From the NCBI GenBank assembly GCA_009869945.1, contig WIXG01000091.1:62001-126000 (forward strand): a stretch of 64,000 nt of DNA, written 5' to 3'. A model generated the notes under the pieces. The model had not been told where the DNA came from. It saw only the letters and a list, made by a program, of their open reading frames with translations, and searched no databases. The DNA is from Mesaphorura yosii (Eukaryota > Arthropoda > Collembola > Poduromorpha > Tullbergiidae). A program made the translations under genes and the position numbers. Of the stretch, positions 1 through 13,076 are shown piece by piece (within the stretch, counting starts at the first letter, position 1; the number at the start of each line of letters is the position of its first letter).

Positions 1-467
1 CTACGTGCTGTCATGTCAGGTATGTTCTTCAGGCCCACCTGATAGCGACAGCAATATTGACACGCAGGTTTACCCATGCCACTTCGACTTTTCAGCTAAT
101 CCTGGATCATGGATCCATTGCCACCCTGCACAATCCTGATACCGAGATAGGCTTGTTCCGGCCCTGCAATTATTCCAGTACCATCCCTGTAAACGATATG
201 AACAAACGCGTGAAATTCATGTCACGTAGCGTCGCTAACGGCAAACAGCGCATCGACATCGAGCCTTATGTGACTTTCCGCCTGAATGCGACTAACGGAG
301 AATCCAGGACTGAGACGCCAAAAGACAATAGCCGATCACAGTCCCCGAGAGACCTGTTTGCAGATATGTTACGGGACGTCAAATTAGGATCACATCCCAG
401 AAAATATACCAACGTTCGGTATTTTGCCAAGTATCATGATCACCACAGCACTCAGTGCAGATCGTAA
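1..467 (+). other. Reading frame open from the left edge, unidentified
   Basis: The frame with codons starting at position 3 is open from the window edge to the TAA ending at 467, about 155 codons. By eye this block is richer in G and C than most of the non-coding DNA further right. The translation has no signal peptide, membrane segment or motif I recognise. The last third is polar, with many Ser, Arg and Asp residues. There is no convincing ATG at its beginning, so if real it would be the 3' part of an exon or a decayed mobile-element fragment whose start lies outside the window. An open frame of this length is only mildly unusual by chance in 64 kb read in six frames. No function is proposed. 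Confidence 0.15.
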
Positions 468-3400
468 TCGCCTACATCAAGTGGAATCAATAAGAGCGTC
501 GTGATGTGACGTTTCACATTTCAGCTTCAACCGTATCCAATTGGAGTGATGAGAGCGACGCGACTATAATGTGTTCCAATTGTCGTCGTCGGGGGAAATG
601 AGACCCGACGTTCAGCTTCATGTCTGCGATTCCGTGGGTGTGGGTGTGCTGTACATTAGCCCACACATGCTGTCGAAATATGATCAAGAGAGCAGCTTCA
701 TGCAAGGTGCGCAAGTGGGCAAATTGAGCACAAATTGTTTCTCGGATCATCTTTCCCGTTAATGAACAAATATTTGCTAAAATAGCCACTTCTCCAGTAT
801 TCCCACTTGCACCAAAGCAGTACTTTGTCATGTGAGACCGGAATTCTCGGTTCTATCTTGGGGAATCGCCTACACATAATTACTACTACCCTCCTTTCTA
901 AACGTTGCCAGGGAAGGATCCACCCATGGAATGCTGTCCATGCACGCAGGAGTTAATCAGGACGTGAAAATAAGACCCCCGACAAATAGGAACCAGAAAG
1001 TGCCAAGTTGACTGTGGCATAAGACAACGAACGAAGGAAGAGCCAGCGAAGTAAACACTGATCGAATCGGAAATCTGAGCGAAATTTTATTATTCGGTTC
1101 TTTGGTCTCGGAATTTTTTCGGTGACTCAGCAGTTGCACATTGGCGTTGGGAACTTATCAGCAATTCACCCGCATACTGATTATATCTACACATCATCAT
1201 CGCGCCGTCCCGATTTGATCCCAGAGTTGACGTCTGAATCTTTGCCCACGTAGTATAGCCCCAATGCATCTTCAAAAGTCAACAGTGGTGTGACTAAATT
1301 GTAGTCTGAGGCATTACCACATGAGTCATCATCATCTGACAATTTATTCAACATTCTCTCCGTCAATTCGAGCCAAGACGGTGACGCTTCCGATCAAAAT
1401 TATACGCAACGCAATTATTCGGGAGGCCTTCACATTTCAAAGCACTGGGGACTTCTCCCCTGCACTTAATCTTGCGAATATGATTGAGTAATGGTAGTGA
1501 CGGCATGTCAGGCGCAATTCATGTGTGGAGGAAAATTTGTATTTGCTGATAATGCCCGTGACAAAATGGAAGCACGCGAGCGAGACTCGATTGTACTTCA
1601 CGCTCATGCATAATTCCGACGAATTTCCCTTGCCATTGGCTTTGAATCCATTTCAATTACTTCAGTGGTGTGTATTTTACTTTACGCATTATTTTGCATG
1701 TCATTTCATAAATGAACCATGAATGAATGAAGTTTTTTGATCTTTTCAAAGTTACAATTAGAAGAAAAGGAAAGAAAGAATGAGACGAAAAAAATCCAAT
1801 AATGAAAAGTTCATTTGCAAACTTATTCGGTGAAGTGAAACGTCTTCTCTGATGATGATGACAAGAGAAAAGAGAAAAGAAAGAAGCCATGAGACAACTG
1901 TTATTGAATTTCTTTGCTTGTAGTAGTAAGGAAAATGATTAAAAGTTGCAGCAGTAAGAAATGAGATTCTTTCGCCTCTGTCTTGCATGGGTATTCTCAG
2001 CCAAGGCAACCTTGTTACTATCATGCCTTCGCTGGCTCGAAGCAAATTTACATTTCGTCAGAGTGCACTTGCATTCCAACGCTTGTGATGTCAAATATTC
2101 GATGAATTCATTTTACAACTTTGTGTCGCAGCGCAGCGCAGTGTGAGCACCAAGACAAGATTCGGGAAAGTCTAAAATGAAACTTTCTTCTTACTGTCAA
2201 ATTTAATCAAATTACTAACAACAAACAAGAATAACCATTCTTGAACTCGAATCGATTTTCATAATGCGTTACGCACGACACAAACGAAAACACTACAGAA
2301 AACAGTATCTGCAGTCAAAAGAGACTCGAGCGCCTTCCATCAACCGGGTTAAGAAAGGTCACATTTTAATTGAAATCGTCAAACAAAGCGTTGCGAAATG
2401 TGAAACTCGGAAGCAGCATTTATACAAACGTTTTTGTACGTTTACTCTGTATGTTTTAAGTGTGACAATTATTTTGAAATTCATCATATACCTTTAGAAT
2501 TAGCTTTTGCATTTTCAATTTCAGCTTCCAGGAACATACATATTATCGAGCTTATTGTCATAAAATGTCCAGTTAAAAGGAGAATAAGGAAGTGTTCACA
2601 CCTTCGCTTCGCAATTTACACCGCACCCCAGCTCACTAGTTATGGTAAATTGAGAAACTCCAATAAAGCCCACACAAAATGAACGGACACAGATGTTTCG
2701 AATCAATTTCGCAACTCAAAAAATGAACAAATAATCTTAATTTTCTTCATACGTGGATAAACCTTTTGAAATTTCAAACTGATGGGCGACCCGCAGCCAC
2801 ATTGTTAACTTTGCTCAAGAAATTCTACTTAAAAGTTCATGGAATTATTCCACAGCCACAGTTTTCTTGCTGGAATGAACCTGAAAGCAACCAGACCAAG
2901 TCAAATCAAGAACAATACGTTTTTCGTGAATGGACGTATTGTGCCAACCAGTTTCTCAAGAAGTGGAAGCGGCAAGTGCGTGGCCCGACATGGAGAAGGA
3001 AACGGTAATTCTTATGAATGCTTGCCCAAGTCTTTGTCGAATCTTATGAATTGACTAACTGGAAGCCACTTTCTATTCATAAAATGTTAGACTGCTCAAG
3101 TGTGTTCCATATTTCATTGTAAATTATAAGCACAAGTCAAGTATGAGAACTAAAACGAATATGAGCAAGCTCGTGAATGCTTAATTTATGATTTTCCTTC
3201 GTTATGAGTATGCTCAGATGCTCAGTGAATGAAGCATAGCGCTATTTAGACTGAAGTACTGTTTCAAGAAAGTTGGCAGTACCATTGAAATTCTTCCAGC
3301 TGCAATTTAGCGGACACGTGCTTCTGCAGTTTCCTTCGCATAAAACTACTGAAGATTTTCATTCAGGAGAAAGCCTTTCATTAAGATCAAGAGTCGAGAG

Positions 3401-6400
3401 TTTTCCCTTTGAATCAACTATTCGTTTACAATGCACGCGTTTGGGGTCTTGCATGCAATGAATACAAGTTTATGCAAATGGAATTTAATAAGTAAGCTGC
3501 TCAGGTTCTGCGTTCAGGTTCAATAATCTGAAGTACGAATAGGAATTCTTGCGTCATTCATCTTTCCTGTCTTCAGGTTTCAGTGCTTTTGTGCTGATTT
3601 GTTATTATCAGCACGCAGTCGCTCCTGCTGCTGTGATGCATCTGGGAGCACTTGAGTCGCTAGTAATTGTACTACTTAAATTTAATGAGCCTAAGTTTGT
3701 CCACACGGCTTGCCCTGGTCAAGGTATTTTTTCTTGTCTCACTGGCAGAATTTATAGTTCCGGACAGTCGTCTCCTGCTGCTGCTGCAGCTGGAGTTGCT
3801 CTCGTTCTCGTAAAATCCGATCATCGAAACGAAACTCGCAACGCCATGCAATGCATGGCGGAGTTTGAGTTACGCAGCAAGTGGAAGCAATAACTCAAGT
3901 AATGGAGAAAGTAGCACAGCGACAGCGCACGAAAGGAAGTGCGTGGAGGCCAGCAGGTTCGTAAATAAATTGAGTCCGATTGGTTTGCTCTTCATGTGTT
4001 TCTGTTACACTACTAGTGCAAAATTTAATGCGGTTGTTTTTGCCAGCCTCCGTTATCCGTTTCCTTTTATCTCCCTTTGGAATCCGATTCTGTGAACACA
4101 AAGGGCATCCTCGAAATTTAATTCGCACTAAATTGAAGCACAATTCTCCTGAATTTACAAGATCACAGGAGAATAAAAACAATTCCCTGAATTCGGAAAC
4201 CAATCATGCCACCAAGCAGCTCGTGCCTGTGGTTCCGAACGAGGGTATGGGAGAAGATTCACGGCCGAACTTCTATGAAATGAAAGACAATTGGCGAGCG
4301 AGCAGGAAAATATCAACGGTCTTGAAAGGTATTATGAAATGAAGTCACAAGTTTAATACTCAAATTCTTGGAATCAAGTTGTTTGTGAGATGTTAAGAAA
4401 AAGGATTACATGAAAGAAGCATTCCTTTTATTTTATTTTTCATCCTTTCATCTTCTTTCTTCCCTAAGCACTGAGAGTAGTGCACGGGGTAAGAAAAAGA
4501 AAGTAATGAGAATTCTGAATTCTGTAATATTTCATTTTAAAGTTGAAATTGCAAAAAAGTCCTTTATTTGAACGGCAAACGTGAAATTCTGCTGATAGGC
4601 AGAAACAGGCCAGAGACCCTTTCTTTACTTTTCCCGACTAGTCGCTTGTCTCGTCGCGTGCATATTTATTTCCTGTGCTGATGGCATATCATCATCGAGA
4701 TCGTGATAACAGGCATCTCACCGTCTTAAACCTTCTTGAGACCAAGTCAAGTTCATCCCAACAGCAAGCAAGCAGAAGCTGAAGTCGAGCCGTTCGATCG
4801 GAGCGGAGCTCGGAGACGAGAACCACAAACAATACGGAAGAATTCAGACTGCTTCCCTTTTAGTAAATGGCTCATTATCTCTTCTCCCAAACTTTTTTCT
4901 GCTTTGCCTGTGCGATGCGATGCGAAAGAAAGATCTTTTGCGTCGGTGCTTTATTCCTTCCTTTTCCTCCGCCACGCCGACCGTGCCGGGCTTTGATCTG
5001 GAATATTATCTACTTTGTTAGCCATGACAAATGCCCCTGAAGACACATTTAAAAAGTTACACTCATTATAATAAAGAAAAGAATCTTATTTCGGGAAGCT
5101 TTACTTTGCGCGTAACATTTTTACCTTTTAACTTTTATGCTCGAGTCTTTCCGAGCGCAGCGTAGCAATTTCTTTCACCAATTTTTTAAAATATATTTCT
5201 GCTGGGGTCCTGTGCGTCTTGCACGCAATGAAATTGTCTATTAATAGTATTACTACAAGGATGCGTTACCTTTTCTCCATATCTGAGGTCTAATAATATC
5301 ACCTTCGTTTTCATTTCAACCGTGTAAAATATCTCAAGCGCCCCGACCAGCCTACGCGTTCGCTGGCCCAAGCTCTCAGCTCAAAGAGTCGGAGCGAGAG
5401 AGGGTACAAATTGATCCCTGAAGTGAACACTTTTATTACACATTAACATGTAATTTTTCCCTTTTGGATTCATTATACCAGCCTCTACTATTAAACTCCT
5501 AACGCGCACGCTGCGCTACGTGTTATATTACCTACAATTAAATAAACGCACCAAGCACTAGCAATGCACCAACAGCCGAGACCGCATCAGCTCAACTCTA
5601 TTACTAAATGCACGAGGTGTACCTGATTTTAATCTATTGTTTGGCTTGAGGATGGCAGGGAATAGAGGACCGACAAATGTGTAATTTGGTTACGTGAAAA
5701 GAAATCTCAGTGCTAACAACGTCTTTGATGCACTCCAGAGATTTGATGAGCTCATTACATTCCTTCTGTGATGTTGATTGGATGTTCGCCTATTACATTC
5801 AGGTTGGTTTTCAGTCACGTACCAGCAACTACATTGTAATGTGATGTGTTATGCATAATGCGAAGTTTATGGGTTGTAAATAGTCCTGTAACGTTGTGGT
5901 AGGCCTGAGCCGAGACCAAGTCCGTTGTAAATCTTGAGAACTGCCTTAACCCTGGGTAATAATTACACTGAACGCCATAATTCGAAACATCCTGAATAGA
6001 GTTTCATTCACTGGAAACTTGAACTGGGAATTCGTAGACTGTCCTGGTCCTACATCATTATGATGTTTTTTAACAGTCTGCAGTATGGCCTGCTAACTGC
6101 GTTATCAATGAAGACCCGGGTATAAAATCTGTCGCATTCAGACACCGACGGCAGCAATTATGTGAATATTTGAATGGTTCCAATGAATTTTGAATGCCTA
6201 TGAGGCTCTTGAGTGCTATTACAAATAATAATGGCCAAGCCAAGTCTGAATTTTAAAAAGTGGAACACTTGACTTGACTTTGCGATGGTGTGGGAGTTGG
6301 CAAATCACGATGCTAGCATCTTGGAAGCCAGGACCTTGAGAGTTGAAACGGAACAATGGAACAAAGAACACCGAGATCAAGAAGTAAAGAATTTCTAATT

Positions 6401-8300
6401 GCTAAACGTAGTAGTCCAAGGTTATCGCGTTTGGCAAATTAATAAGTTGCGAATAAGATAGACTAGACTAGATTCCTTTATTGAGCAAACAAAGAAGTCT
6501 GCAAATTCTTTCGTACAACTTTACAGACATCGTTGTCTTCCTGAAATACGAGGCCATGAATGTCAAAGTCTATGCAAAATCCAAACCAGTCGCGAAAAAG
6601 TGGAAACGCCGAAATTACATTCAGCAGCAGTCATCGCAGTCCGGATGAACAATGCCCAAGTGTTTGGCAAGCAGCTGCACAAAAGAACGAAATTAGGTAA
6701 GTAAGAACAAGTCGTGTAATGTACCCAACTTTCGCCGACATAAATAGGTAATTTAGTTGGCAGTTCATTTCCACACGTCTTGGCGCATTGTTCCCTACCG
6801 GCCGTACGCATGCCTTGCGAAATGTTCAGTCACTGTCTTCTTGTCGTCTCTTCCTTCCTTCATTGCTTTTGCCATCGTGCCCCGAGCCTGACTGCCTGCT
6901 TGCCTGGATGCGGGAATTCCGTTTTCCCCGACTGACACATCAATATGCCAAAGTTTTTTAAAAGTGACTCCAGGGAATTCTCTGCACCGTCTCAAATGTT
7001 TTCTTTGGAAGCGTGCGGGTCTCCGTCGACAATTCACAATGTTTCAATGTTCTAAATAATGTTCACCAGTCAATGAAGTACACGAATAAAAAGAAATGGA
7101 GAACAATTCAGTGCCAATAATATCAACTTTATTTTTATTTTCTTTCCGATATTGTCATCCCCAGCAATACTGCGAGTCCTGTCTCGCTGTGCCGTGGCTG
7201 GAGTCTCTGGCACAGTTTCCCTGAAGGTCTGGATCTGGACAATGTAAGAGGAAGGAATGCCTTACGACTCTTGACAGCCACTATAATTAAATTGTGTTCA
7301 TATCCTCACAGACTTGGACCACTTGGGCTCGGGTGGAATTCACCGGAGCGCGGTATAAGCAAGGCTCTCCACCATCAAATAAAGAGATTTATATTTTAAG
7401 GCAAACAAAAGCGGATTTCTAATCCTTTACATGACCCCAATCCATGTTAAAAGTATGAGGAATGCCAATACTTCAGAAACCAAAATTAAACACGCTTTGA
7501 TCCAAGATGAATGACTTTAGGAAGAAGCGGATAAAGTTTGAAGAATATTTCGCGTAAAGACTGAAATTTCGTCTCATCTCATTGTGAAAGCTCCAGCTCC
7601 TCAACCTCGATCGCCTCCACAGAGATCAATAGTAAGGCAGTAAAAGGAAATGAAAGAATTTTATACACGTAGAATTTGCAAAGACAAACAGAAAAGTATC
7701 ATAATGACTTCAACCCAACTGCCAAGCTTAGCAATAACTCTGGGATGGAATATTTAATGAATGGGAGTGTCATCAGAGAAATGTATCAAAGACGGTTAAT
7801 TGTATAAAAAATCACGAATGGGAATAATTTGTAGCCATCAATTGCAAGACTGCTGATGCTGACAAGCAAAGCACGTGAACTCACTTCCCATGCGTGAGGT
7901 AGTAGTCGTAGCCAAACCAAACCGCAAATTAATCCAGCAAATTTTTGCAATATATTAAGTTGTGTCTCAATTTTCCCAGGTACGAATAGCTTGCTTTCTG
8001 CTTCTGTAGAAATACGAGATACCCTTCCACTAGGATCAAGACCTCCTTCTAGTACGGGATTTTCCCGTGCCACAGTGTACACGTAAAGAGATACAGAATG
8101 GGGCGAGCAGGAGCAGACTATAGCTGGGCTCGCTGTGCTCGAGTGCGACCGTGGCTCCCATACACCGTGTTGTACACGTAGACAAGACCACGCGACTCAC
8201 ACACAGCACAGTGCTACGCAAGAGTACGTGGTTTAGCTGAGCGTCCGCTCCGCCATGTTGTATTTGTCTGAAACCAGCGAGTTGAGCTCCTCTAATTTCT
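468..8300. other. Long stretch without a recognisable gene
   Basis: About 7.8 kb upstream of the transposase-derived gene. The short ORFs on both strands look like chance: no conserved motif, no signal peptide and no consistent splice frame. A roughly 75-codon open frame ending at a good GTAAGT donor (6697/6698) is the most exon-like piece, but it lacks a start and any family signature. The block also holds a TG-rich run near 637-650, purine-rich runs near 1757-1890, and a 19-bp palindrome at 3842-3860. It is probably intergenic or intronic. Confidence 0.5.
3842..3860. repeat. Perfect inverted repeat, 9-bp arms, 1-nt centre
   Basis: The nine bases CGCCATGCA at 3842-3850 are followed by one A and then their exact reverse complement at 3852-3860. 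It sits in a GC-richer patch with CTG-rich sequence just upstream (about 3775-3792). A 19-bp perfect palindrome could be a binding site for a dimeric factor or chance. Nothing around it decides this. Confidence 0.85.
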
Positions 8301-8399
8301 GTGAACAAACGAAATCTGTTCGCATGCTACTACTTTGAACAAGTTCGAGTTTGAAACCCGCTGGTCTGTGTTTTGGTTGTATTTTTCGTGTTGCGAAGT

Positions 8400-8510
8400 T
8401 TTAATCATTGAAATTGCATGAATTAATTAGTGGCACTGCTGTAGCCAGTTCAAATTGTGGCTATTTATTGAATTCATCGACTGAGAACGGGGAAAATGGC
8501 ATAGAATCAG
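8400..8510 (+). other. Probable 5'UTR exon of the MULE-derived gene
   Basis: The sequence ending ...ATCAG at 8510 is followed by a perfect GTAAGT donor at 8511-8516. A matching acceptor lies just before the start codon of the large gene. This implies a non-coding first exon. Its 5' end cannot be fixed from sequence, and 8400 is nominal. If transcribed, it holds two minimal upstream ORFs: ATG AAT TAA at 8418-8426 and ATG GCA TAG at 8496-8504. The latter has A at -3 and G at +4, a good initiation context. Such tiny uORFs often lower translation of the main frame; that they do so here is inference. Confidence 0.55.
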
Positions 8511-8705
8511 GTAAGTTACACTTATAGTAAGGCAGTAATCTTGTTTACTGGAATCTGAGATTGCAATTAGAGTAATTAAGTCAAATTCTTCTTCTCTCCG
8601 GTTTACCCAGCTTTGTTCATTTGTCACTTCTTTATTATTATCACTTCGTACGTCGAGAACCATCAAGTGCAAGTGACAAGTGAATACAATACATCTTAAA
8701 TTCAG
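8511..8705 (+). other. Intron 1, in the 5'UTR, 195 bp
   Basis: It begins with a consensus GTAAGT donor and ends at an AG at 8704-8705 (...TTAAATTCAG). The main ATG follows ten bases later at 8716. No coding frame crosses it. The length matches the other introns of the gene (144 and 132 bp). Confidence 0.7.
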
Positions 8706-8715
8706 GTCATTTGAA

Positions 8716-11700
8716 ATGGGCACGACCACCAAAGCGACGACTTATGTGTTAAATCAGACTACAGGCATGGTTGAAGCCATGAGCGAGCACGGCGAATCGA
8801 TAATTATCTCAGACATTAACACAATCGACGATAATCAAGTGCAGATGGGTCAAGTTGTAATTGGACATGAAGTGGAAGTTGTGTCAGTGAATCCAGACAG
8901 GACATCACGACCGCCAGTGAGATCGAATAGACCGTCGCTGCTACGACGTGGTCCTCGGACAAGCGCATTGTCTTCACATGTCACATCTTATCAGCCACAA
9001 ATTTCGCCAGCGATACTCTCAAGATATGGCTTAAATAATGCAAGTGCCTCTCCCACTGCTTCCTATTTATCGGGACTATCTTCAAGGCCTTCAGGTTCTT
9101 CACTTCACGCTGATCGAAAGCTGGGTGTCAATGCACGCCGTGGAATCACTACACCAGTGGGAAAGAACATCGTTTCTGGGGCAGTATCCGCCACGAAAAA
9201 TAGTGCTGTTGAGGAAATAGTCGTCTGGCCTCAAAATTTGGAAGAATATCAGATTGTTGAAGTTGAAGAAGGGCAACTTCAGCAATACTTTCAAAACCAG
9301 GAGGCCGGGGATGATGATCAGGAGCAGGAATTTAAGTATGAGGAAGAGGAAGAGCAAGCACACGCATTTCAGTTGGAGGATGGTACCCTTATTGATCCGA
9401 CTTCTGGACAGCAGCTGATTCTTTGTGACGATGGTCAAAATTTGAATCTTTCTGGCTTGGTTGTTCAATTTCAAACTATCTCTAATGGACAATTACGCAA
9501 GGCAGCAAAAGTGTCAAAGCGCAAACTCGCCACGGACTTGAAGTGCCAGGAAGAAGGATGTGACAGTGTTGTGCACAATGTCATTGATTTGAGAAAGCAT
9601 TTACAAACTCAACACATGATGGAGTTGGACGAAGAAAACGTCCTGTTCGCAAATGATGATGGTAAGTTTGTTTATGTTAATTGCTTTGAAATTCATTTCC
9701 TTCTTCTCGTTGCTTATTATTAGCTAACGTAGGGCTCAGATTCACACTTCATCTCGTTCTTTTAAGTGACCAAAAACTAAATGTGCTTGTTTCGTTTAAA
9801 TCCAGAATTTAGAACCTGGAGAGCAAATTACGAAAGAGATCGCAAGGTCAGTTTCATTTACCGTGGTGGCACCAAGAAAATTTCATCTGAGAAGGCTGTA
9901 ACGTACCTAATTTGCCACCGGTCTGGAATCTATAAACCGACACCAGGAGCAGCGTCTGAACGTAAAAGGAAAATGAAGCCTCAAGGCAGTTGTAAAATCG
10001 GTACACATTGCACCGCTGGCGTGAAATTGTTGAAGAACTTAATCAATGGAACAATTGAGGCAACCATTTGTCACACGCATTATGGGCACGAATTGGAAAA
10101 CATACAACATTTAAGAGTCAACGTCACCATTAAGGAGATTCTTCTTGGAAAATTTGACGAAGGTTCGAACTCCTTCTTTAGCAAATAGCAAAATTCAATT
10201 CATAGAAACTTCATTTGATTCAAGACCCTAGAGTCCTGAGGGGCTCGGACGCATTAGAGGTTCGAATCTTGATCTTTGTATGTTATTTTAACAGGTATGT
10301 CGTTCGCACAAGTCCTTCAATATGTTCATCATAATCCCGATGGATTAGAAGGACTTCACGTTGTTGACAGACGTGCCATTCGTAACATCTATGACCAATG
10401 GAAGAAACTGAATAACGTTAGCAATCAGCCCCGGCAAAGTTTGGTTGGGCATAGTATAGGTGTAGAAGAGAAAGAAGATCCATTACATGATTCTGTCATC
10501 CTACATACCGCTGAGATTACCGAGGCTGAACCAGGAGATAGTCAGAACGAAGAAATATCCGGACAGCCTGTCAGTAACTCAACTGAAACAGCAAAAGCTT
10601 TGGAGGATTCGCAACATGACATAACAGGGTCAGATATACAAGAACATTTGATACCAACTCTTCTGACCAACAATAGATCTAGCAAATCATCAAAGCAACC
10701 AGTTCCAATTAAAACTATGAACGAATTAGTACATGAATCAATCCATAGCCTATTAGAGCATGGAGAATCAGGCCCCACCGTTCTGTTTTATAAACGAGTC
10801 GGGAGCAAATACCCAGTCTGTGGTGGTGATGAAGGGTATGAAGTTTCGAAATTATTCAGCAAAGACCACCTTTGTGTGGTTTTGCAAACTCCCGTGCAGC
10901 GACAGCTTCTGCAAATGTTTGGAAAAGTATTGTACGTCGATGTCGTTAACGCCAGTGATTTGGACTTGGTCATGTTGGCGGTGCTGGATGAGTTCCTGAC
11001 GGCAATACCTGTGACATGGATGATTGTGAGTGAAGTGACCTCAGAAAATGTGGAACTGTGTTTTCGGTGCATCAAAGAAAATTGTGAGGAAGTGAAATGC
11101 GAATATTTCTACTCCAACAGAAACGTCGACCATCACGCTCTATGGAGCAAAGTGTTTGGCAAAAAACCCCGGTTGATGCTGGCACAAGAAGATACCGTCA
11201 AAGACTTTGCAGCTCTCGTCAGAAGGCAGTTTGATGAGGAAGAGCTTCGTGTGTCATTCAACAAAGAATTAGAAACTTTAGTGATGACACCTGACAGACA
11301 AATGTATGAAGACAGTTTAAAATCAATTAAGCTGAGGAACTCGTCATTGTACAAAACCCTGGCGAGAGACTGGTTACTCAATAAAAGTCAGTGGGCATAT
11401 CACGCTCGACTTCATCTTCCATTTGTGATAGAAGAATCTTTTGCAAGGCTGAAGAAGTTCGTACTATTCAAAGGAACTAAGAAGTTGTCTAGAAACATTA
11501 GTAATGTGCTGAAAATTGGATACGATCGTTGCTTCCAGCGAAATAAGAGTCTATTCAAAGGCGACTTAAAGTTTCAACAGATTCTCGATACAATACAGAA
11601 GAATCACGATACTGACTTCGGTGAAGACGCTAAAATTGTGCAAGTGTCTGCCAATAAGTACTTGGTGCAAAATGCTTTCACTGTTTACGATCTTCGCACG

Positions 11701-12567
11701 GCTTGCAAATGCAAAATACGCTGCAAATCATGTGATGTTTGTGCTCATCGGTATTGGTGTACTTGTGGAGACAATGCAAACTTCTGTGTCCATGCTCATA
11801 AAGTTTGTTCGCATACGAAGCCGACGTCAGTTAAGATGGAAAGACCTGCAATAGTTGAACAAGAACCTGTCCTTGCTCAGTTAGTTGAGACCCAAGATTT
11901 TGCGAAGCTGGAAACTCAGCCAATCCCAATGGAAGAAGACTGGTTTGAGGAGGAAGAAGAGAACGATGAAGAGGAAGTGGAAGCGGAAGAAGTGCCTGAA
12001 GACCCACCTGCATGTGCGCCTGCTGAAGCTGAAATTTCGAAGGGAATAGAAGATGAAGAACCGGAGATTGTCAAGGCCGCATCGTTATCGCCCAGAAGGA
12101 CCCCAAAAAGAAATACTTTCGTGGAGCACACCGAAGCGTCCAAGACCTCCAAGATTAGCTCATTACCCGAACCCAACGCCAGTGAATCAGACCAACGAAG
12201 AACCTCATCCAGGATCAAACAGAAGGTGACAAGACCAATGGAGGGTGAGTTCGGAGCAGTTGCGCACAAAAAGGGAAGGAGAAACTCTAACTTAACACCT
12301 GAACCTCCTACACCTACAACGAATCATGTAGCAACTGTGACCGCATCCGCACCAGTCGCTGATCCTCCCGCTTCACCAAGCAAAGGAAGAAAACCCGGCC
12401 GACCACCAAAGAGACAAGTCGCGTCAGAGACGCATACGTCGCAGGATGACGTGATAGAGGAAATACAAAATCTGTTGTGCCGTCTTTCAAGTATTAAAGA
12501 TGAAAAAATGTTATCGGATATTAGGAGAAGAGTGAGTGATATCACAGGATCGCTTAGTTCTAGCTAA
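8716..12567 (+). CDS. Domesticated MULE transposase-like nuclear protein (C2H2 + FAR1/FLYWCH-like + MULE + SWIM + AT-hook)
   Basis: Exons 8716-9661, 9806-10162 and 10295-12567 join in frame (both junctions phase 1) into 1191 residues. The start ATG has G at -3 and +4. Seen in order: acidic run around 196-215; C2H2 finger C277-x4-C282-x12-H295-x4-H300; a Cys/His module at 317-480 (C352, C378, C384, H407, H410) like the FAR1/FLYWCH part of MULE proteins; VLFYK at 597-601 and a MULE DDE core at about 625-830; a cysteine cluster ending in a SWIM motif C923-x-C925-x6-C932-x-H934; an acidic tract at about 980-1005; an AT-hook (KPGRP, about 1134-1138); and a C-terminal helix from about 1152. In the core D650 and E814/E815 remain, but the middle acidic site reads Y-S-N-R-N (707-711) and the expected Cys-x-x-His is replaced. 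A host DNA-binding or regulatory role in the nucleus is inferred. There are no terminal inverted repeats that I can see, the gene has introns and no internal stops, so a live transposon is unlikely. Confidence 0.93.
9662..9805 (+). other. Intron 2, 144 bp, phase 1
   Basis: It has a GTAAGT donor at 9662-9667 and an AG acceptor at 9804-9805 after ...AAATCC. The G at 9661 joins AA at 9806 to make GAA, which keeps the frame. The intron separates the exon holding the C2H2 finger from the exon holding the FAR1/FLYWCH-like module. It therefore lies exactly between host-like N-terminal sequence and transposase-like sequence. Confidence 0.9.
10163..10294 (+). other. Intron 3, 132 bp, weak donor, phase 1
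   Basis: The donor reads AAG/GTTCGA, which fits poorly after the GT. The acceptor at 10293-10294 (TTTTAACAG) is ordinary. The join G+GT gives a glycine and continues from a ...KFDE-G-MSF context, which fits the family pattern across this position, so the intron is supported by frame and homology. A pol III B-box-like string, GGTTCGAATC, occurs near its 3' end, but no tRNA folds around it. Confidence 0.8.
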
Positions 12568-12657
12568 TACACTTGAACTGTGACAAATATCAACATGAAA
12601 CAATATTTTGTGACAAGAATGTCTTGTTTTCTGCGCTGAATGATTCAAGTTTTCTTA

Positions 12658-12663
12658 AATAAA
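12658..12663 (+). other. Poly(A) signal of the MULE-derived gene
   Basis: A canonical AATAAA lies about 90 bases after the TAA stop (12565-12567). It is the first such hexamer downstream, which suggests a short 3'UTR ending near 12680. Confidence 0.75.
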
Positions 12664-13076
12664 AATTTTAGCACAACTAAATTCTAAACATGCGACTGGG
12701 TCTACTTAATGCTTAATCGGTGGACGACTCGACTAGACCACCGCTCAAACTCTATTTTGGCCGGTTCATTAACTACAGTACAATAATCCGCATTGTAATA
12801 TTGGCATCATTGCTTCAGAAAACTCGTCCGTCGTGCTTTAATCTAGTTCCAAAAATATTTCCATTTGCTCGTTCACAAACACAGCATGTAGTCTTTTTCA
12901 TATTGGACTGGAAATGAAATTACCTTTTCACATGCACCCAAGCTGCCATTATTTGTGAATTTTCAGTCCATTTTACTACTGCTGGACAAAAGTTTTGCTT
13001 AAATTTTTATGTCTTTATACAATTTCTGTAGCTATCCGTATTTCACGACGACATAGGTCTTTTACTCTCCGCTTGC

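Follow-up and report, generated by a model that had tools for sequence, protein, structure and literature searches.

Gene structure and transcript signals

The window, the whole 64,000-nucleotide stretch of DNA that was analysed, spans positions 62001-126000 of contig C91 and holds an intact, intron-bearing gene on the + strand. The preliminary description had given a single 1191-residue frame in three coding exons (8716-9661, 9806-10162 and 10295-12567), and recomputation reproduced the coordinates, the strand, the number of exons and the protein length. The longest stop-free run in the gene is 764 codons. When the window was simulated 60 times with an order-1 Markov model, no run exceeded 299 codons. 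Upstream, a donor with full consensus points to a probable 5'UTR intron, so the gene would have about four exons. The parts of the gene model are as follows.

8511..8705, + strand, probable 5'UTR intron, CAG/GTAAGT ... TTCAG, donor 9/9 to consensus
8716..9661, + strand, coding exon 1, N-terminal region and C2H2 finger (reading-frame analysis)
9806..10162, + strand, coding exon 2, symmetric phase 1-1, FAR1/FLYWCH-like Cys/His module (frame and phases)
10295..12567, + strand, coding exon 3, RNaseH-like core, SWIM, acidic tract and AT-hook (reading-frame analysis)
12658..12663, + strand, AATAAA poly(A) signal (sequence motif)

The donor of intron 1 matches the consensus at 8/9 positions. The donor of intron 2 is weak (AAG/GTTCGA, 6/9), but it is still the best of the four GTs within 10061-10200. 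Among the splice pairs tried in that interval, the open frame is retained by two donors, the one of intron 2 and one at 10070 that scores 3/9. The two coding introns (9662-9805 and 10163-10294) share phase 1 and have lengths divisible by three, yet each contains in-frame stops. Exon 2 is 357 nt long. Skipping it is predicted to give a 1072-residue protein that lacks the FAR1-like module, and with intron 2 retained the predicted product is 442 residues long and contains only the C2H2 finger and the FAR1-like module.

The rest of the window contains little else. Outside the gene (1-8500 and 13000-64000) there is no stop-to-stop frame longer than 192 codons, none of the 10 longest reading frames has a Pfam match above the cut-off, and scanning the window for Rfam families and tRNAs returned nothing. 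For a genome of 93 Mb the window appears poor in genes, although genes made of small exons would be missed by these searches. The cuticle family PF00379, a marker of arthropods, has 62 matches in the genome at E<=1e-5, which makes an arthropod the most likely host. The nematode cuticle collagen model has no match in the genome, and it has none in the controls either.

The RNaseH-like core and its predicted catalytic state

The protein had been described as carrying a MULE core. What stands of this is an RNaseH-like core derived from a transposase. The Pfam family PF21056 (ZSWIM1-3_RNaseH-like) matches at 34.1 bits against a cut-off of 27.2 and is the only family over its cut-off in the protein. 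The general Pfam MULE model PF10551 does not report the gene, which is absent from the 69 places that this model finds in the genome at E<=10. The ZSWIM1/3 helical domain PF21600 gives a weak match (E=0.092) that is below the cut-off but in the right order. A genome-wide search with PF21056 returned the gene itself and one further place, which is below the cut-off. Searches against solved structures found no relative of the whole protein and only two chance-level matches to the core (E=0.34 and 1.3). Structure predictions from the single sequence were poor, with a mean pLDDT of 36.3 over residues 590-960 and 38.1 over exon 2.

10870..11100, + strand, ZSWIM1-3 RNaseH-like domain, residues 627-703 (PF21056, E=3e-8, above cut-off)
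10939..10941, + strand, D650, first catalytic Asp, retained (alignment with eight own-genome MULEs; D in 8/8)
11116..11118, + strand, N709, in place of the second catalytic Asp (same alignment; D in 7/8)
11431..11433, + strand, E814, catalytic Glu column (same alignment; E in 5/5 MULEs with letters there)

The core was aligned with MULE frames from its own genome, eight in number and chosen from the fetched loci that have an open frame around the first catalytic Asp. All eight have Cys and His in a CxxH motif after the second Asp, where the gene has A731 and D734. If the ends of the Pfam matches are taken as starting points and no gap lies between, D650 and N709 of the gene correspond to model positions of about 46 and 109, as do the two Asp residues of the MULE on contig C305. 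The assignment of D650, N709 and E814 to the catalytic columns is only probable since the alignment is distant; BLAST of the gene against the SWIM-MULE family of its own genome found nothing significant, and a profile comparison restricted to that family gave E=0.32, which is not significant. Despite the retained first Asp and Glu, DNA cleavage by the core is predicted to be dead because the second Asp is replaced by Asn and the CxxH motif is lost.

Zinc motifs, acidic tract and AT-hook

The other parts of the protein were recognised mainly by pattern or composition.

9544..9615, + strand, C2H2 finger, C-x4-C-x12-H-x4-H, residues 277-300 (pattern; weak Pfam matches under the cut-off)
11704..11793, + strand, two tandem SWIM-type motifs, residues 905-919 and 923-934 (pattern)
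11884..12042, + strand, acidic tract, residues 965-1017 (composition)
12391..12411, + strand, AT-hook-like KPGRPPK, residues 1134-1140 (pattern)

The AT-hook that had been proposed is present as a pattern. The SWIM motif is clear by pattern at residues 923-934 (CxCx6CxH) and is accompanied by a second one at 905-919 (CxCx9CxH); the Pfam SWIM model PF04434 does not report the gene, which is absent from the 14 places found in the genome at E<=0.01. The C2H2 finger likewise holds as a pattern, with Pfam matches that stay under their cut-offs. Of 2000 residue shuffles, 22 produced such a SWIM pattern, 6 such a C2H2 pattern and 42 such an AT-hook pattern. Two acidic tracts had been described: the C-terminal one exceeds 45% D+E over 30 residues, and the other is below this threshold.

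The module in exon 2 has its Cys and His residues in the order of the FAR1/FLYWCH type. Statistical support for it was found neither with the Pfam FAR1 and FLYWCH models, which have no match, nor with a profile built from six own-genome MULE modules, which gave no significant match. The two Cys of the module are spaced wider than in the own-genome MULE modules. A scan of the genome for the codon pattern CHRSG..Y found four places, three of them without the context of the module, and the reversed control pattern found five. The module may be related to proteins of the CaRF type and to tick proteins that occur in multiple copies.

Copy number and related elements in the genome

The DNA from 8100 to 12750 occurs at one place in the 93-Mb genome of 1127 contigs. 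Protein searches of the genome returned the gene alone and one chance-level match (E=0.54) inside the frame of an intermediate filament protein. The best ungapped inverted pair within about 3 kb on each side of the gene was equalled by 18 of 40 controls, which is the level of chance. Of 15 inverted pairs found, three flank the gene, and these are matches at the level of 76-80% identity over 20-25 nt. Therefore, the locus is a single copy with inverted repeats at chance level and not one of many near-identical copies flanked by terminal inverted repeats (TIRs). No relative was found on viral contigs by protein search or by the Cys/His pattern of the module. Descent from a MULE family that is still in the genome is unsupported as far as tested, as no significant protein or DNA relative was found.

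This intermediate filament protein is encoded at L020:1411-2358 (Pfam Filament, E=3.8e-32; best match among solved structures, vimentin). Its frame stops about 40 residues past the rod and has no lamin tail. Arthropods are not known to have cytoplasmic intermediate filaments, apart from a springtail case.

The genome also contains a SWIM-MULE family with 54 matching places, where pieces of one copy may count apart, and 29 of the 54 have in-frame stops. The fetched loci L023-L030 lie on contigs C305, C887, C251, C553, C231, C455, C1049 and C271 and range from open to broken frames; the copy on C305 is less than 3 kb from a beta-tubulin-like fragment. The family resembles the gene in having a DDE-type core, a SWIM motif and a C-terminal AT-hook in the same order. 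It differs from the gene in its 54 places, in being PF10551-positive, in having D-D-E in two of the three copies aligned and in showing no significant pairwise similarity to it. Elsewhere in the genome, three equal-scoring MULE matches (L006, L007 and L008) follow each other at exact 4044-bp steps on the 12-kb contig C1031, as either a tandem array or an assembly artefact.

Origin of the additional parts

The C2H2 finger, the acidic regions and the AT-hook had been proposed as acquisitions of the host. For the AT-hook this is unsupported. Seven of the eight fetched SWIM-MULE loci were examined for their C-termini (L027 was left out) and six had the C-terminus in the aligned frame. All six end in KRK(R/P)GRP, an AT-hook, and in five of them the SWIM finger lies about 25 residues ahead of it; the frame of L028 is without the SWIM stretch. 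Since all six C-termini have it, an AT-hook behind SWIM is a feature of the transposase. The AT-hook of the gene is 200 residues past SWIM, beyond the acidic tract, and given this spacing it is possible that it was a separate gain. A gene of this kind can thus carry an AT-hook that the host did not add, which corrects a tempting inference. A host origin of the C2H2 finger is unsupported as well, as Spectre MULEs of arthropods carry a C2H2 finger (PMC6446971). Nothing like the acidic tract occurs in the SWIM-MULE C-termini examined, and by this comparison it may be a later gain.

Interpretation and alternative explanations

The gene is probably a single-copy host gene of an arthropod that arose from a Mutator-like transposase of the SWIM-bearing ZSWIM1/3 type, is catalytically dead and unable to transpose, and acts as a nuclear DNA-binding regulator. 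The origin of its core from a transposase, as first proposed, is supported. The spliced intact frame with its poly(A) signal, the PF21056 match, the single copy, the inverted repeats at chance level and the predicted loss of catalysis speak for the reading as a whole. An open frame of 1191 codons in a transposase that is predicted to be dead argues for domestication. The FAR1-like module, the C2H2 finger and the AT-hook would target the protein to AT-rich or specific sites, the dead core and the SWIM region would dimerise or keep the protein together, and the acidic tract would bring in partners for transcription or chromatin. The whole protein would then serve as a nuclear regulator like plant FHY3/FAR1. 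A role in regulating transcription or chromatin would be its most likely function because the dead core, the intact frame and the zinc motifs fit the FHY3/FAR1 picture and genes of the FHY3 type have been reported from animals.

It is also possible, with a lower likelihood, that the gene is a direct orthologue of animal ZSWIM1/3 that goes back to one old domestication, in which case its function would be that of ZSWIM1/3. This is compatible with the domesticated regulator, and the likelihoods given to the readings here are not meant to total one. The domestication, earlier described as probably an independent event, may be either separate from or shared with that of ZSWIM1/3, since the core scores on the model of these animal proteins. 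The PF21056 match over the cut-off, the weak PF21600 match in the right order and the SWIM-type motif are in agreement with orthology; however, the C2H2 finger, the long N-terminal region and the AT-hook are outside the matched part, and the Pfam matches leave most of the protein uncovered. The gene is unlikely to be an old relic, that is, the sole surviving copy from an extinct MULE family, deprived of its ends and its catalysis, still free of stops and without a host function. The absence of TIRs and of siblings in the genome and the weak donor of intron 2 would suit a relic, but 1191 codons have stayed open over three exons despite the lost catalytic residues, while the other MULE family has stops in 29 of its 54 places.

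That the gene is a domesticated repressor of MULEs, which kept the parts that bind the element ends and silences related elements, is improbable. MULEs are still plentiful in the genome (69 PF10551 places at E<=10 and 54 places of the SWIM-MULE family), but the gene has no significant similarity to any of them, which makes common binding ends doubtful. It is least likely of all that the gene is a low-copy MULE without terminal repeats that is still mobile. MULEs without TIRs do exist (PMC6446971); however, the gene is a single copy, has coding introns and a probable 5'UTR intron, and has a catalytic triad that is predicted to be dead.

For the domesticated regulator, it is conceivable but doubtful that exon-2 skipping or intron-2 retention lets the one gene yield a full regulator together with a short competitor or a core-only partner. 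In plants, FRS and FRF are separate genes; here, both kinds of product would come from one gene. The domestication of a transposase at this locus is a good case but ordinary in kind, as the process is already known from plants and animals. It contributes an arthropod example of MULE domestication that is well preserved and present as a single copy. Should there be orthologues, the gene would make it possible to test how a transposase turns into a regulator in invertebrates.

Comparison with known systems

No description of the gene was found in a literature search of titles and abstract openings that covered few subscription papers. A recent survey of arthropod MULEs treats mobile elements, and such genes are unmentioned in the parts covered (PMC13359780). 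MULE-derived genes of the FHY3 type are reported from some arthropods, Myzus and Limulus among them, and also from a sponge, molluscs, a brachiopod and a lancelet (PMC10027918).

The gene resembles the arthropod MULE clade Spectre in its C2H2 finger, and the arthropod clade Ghost in that Ghost is listed with SWIM (PMC6446971). By that description, the complete Spectre element differs in having C2H2 and transposase as two frames and in having perfect TIRs (PMC6446971). With animal ZSWIM1/ZSWIM3 the gene shares an RNaseH-like core over the curated cut-off, a weak match to the helical domain in order and a SWIM-type motif behind it. Compared with the Pfam models of ZSWIM1/ZSWIM3, the gene also has a C2H2 finger, a long N-terminal part, an acidic tract and an AT-hook, all of them outside any match over a cut-off.

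The likeness to plant FHY3/FAR1 (FRS) and to the animal FHY3-type proteins consists of a putative FAR1-like module, a predicted-dead core and SWIM in the same order (PMC6000157, PMC10027918). The gene differs from FHY3/FAR1 in that it is found by neither the FAR1 nor the MULE model of Pfam and in having an extra C2H2 finger in front and an AT-hook behind. In FHY3/FAR1, mutations of residues in the core or in SWIM abolish activation even though transposition has most likely been lost (PMC6000157).
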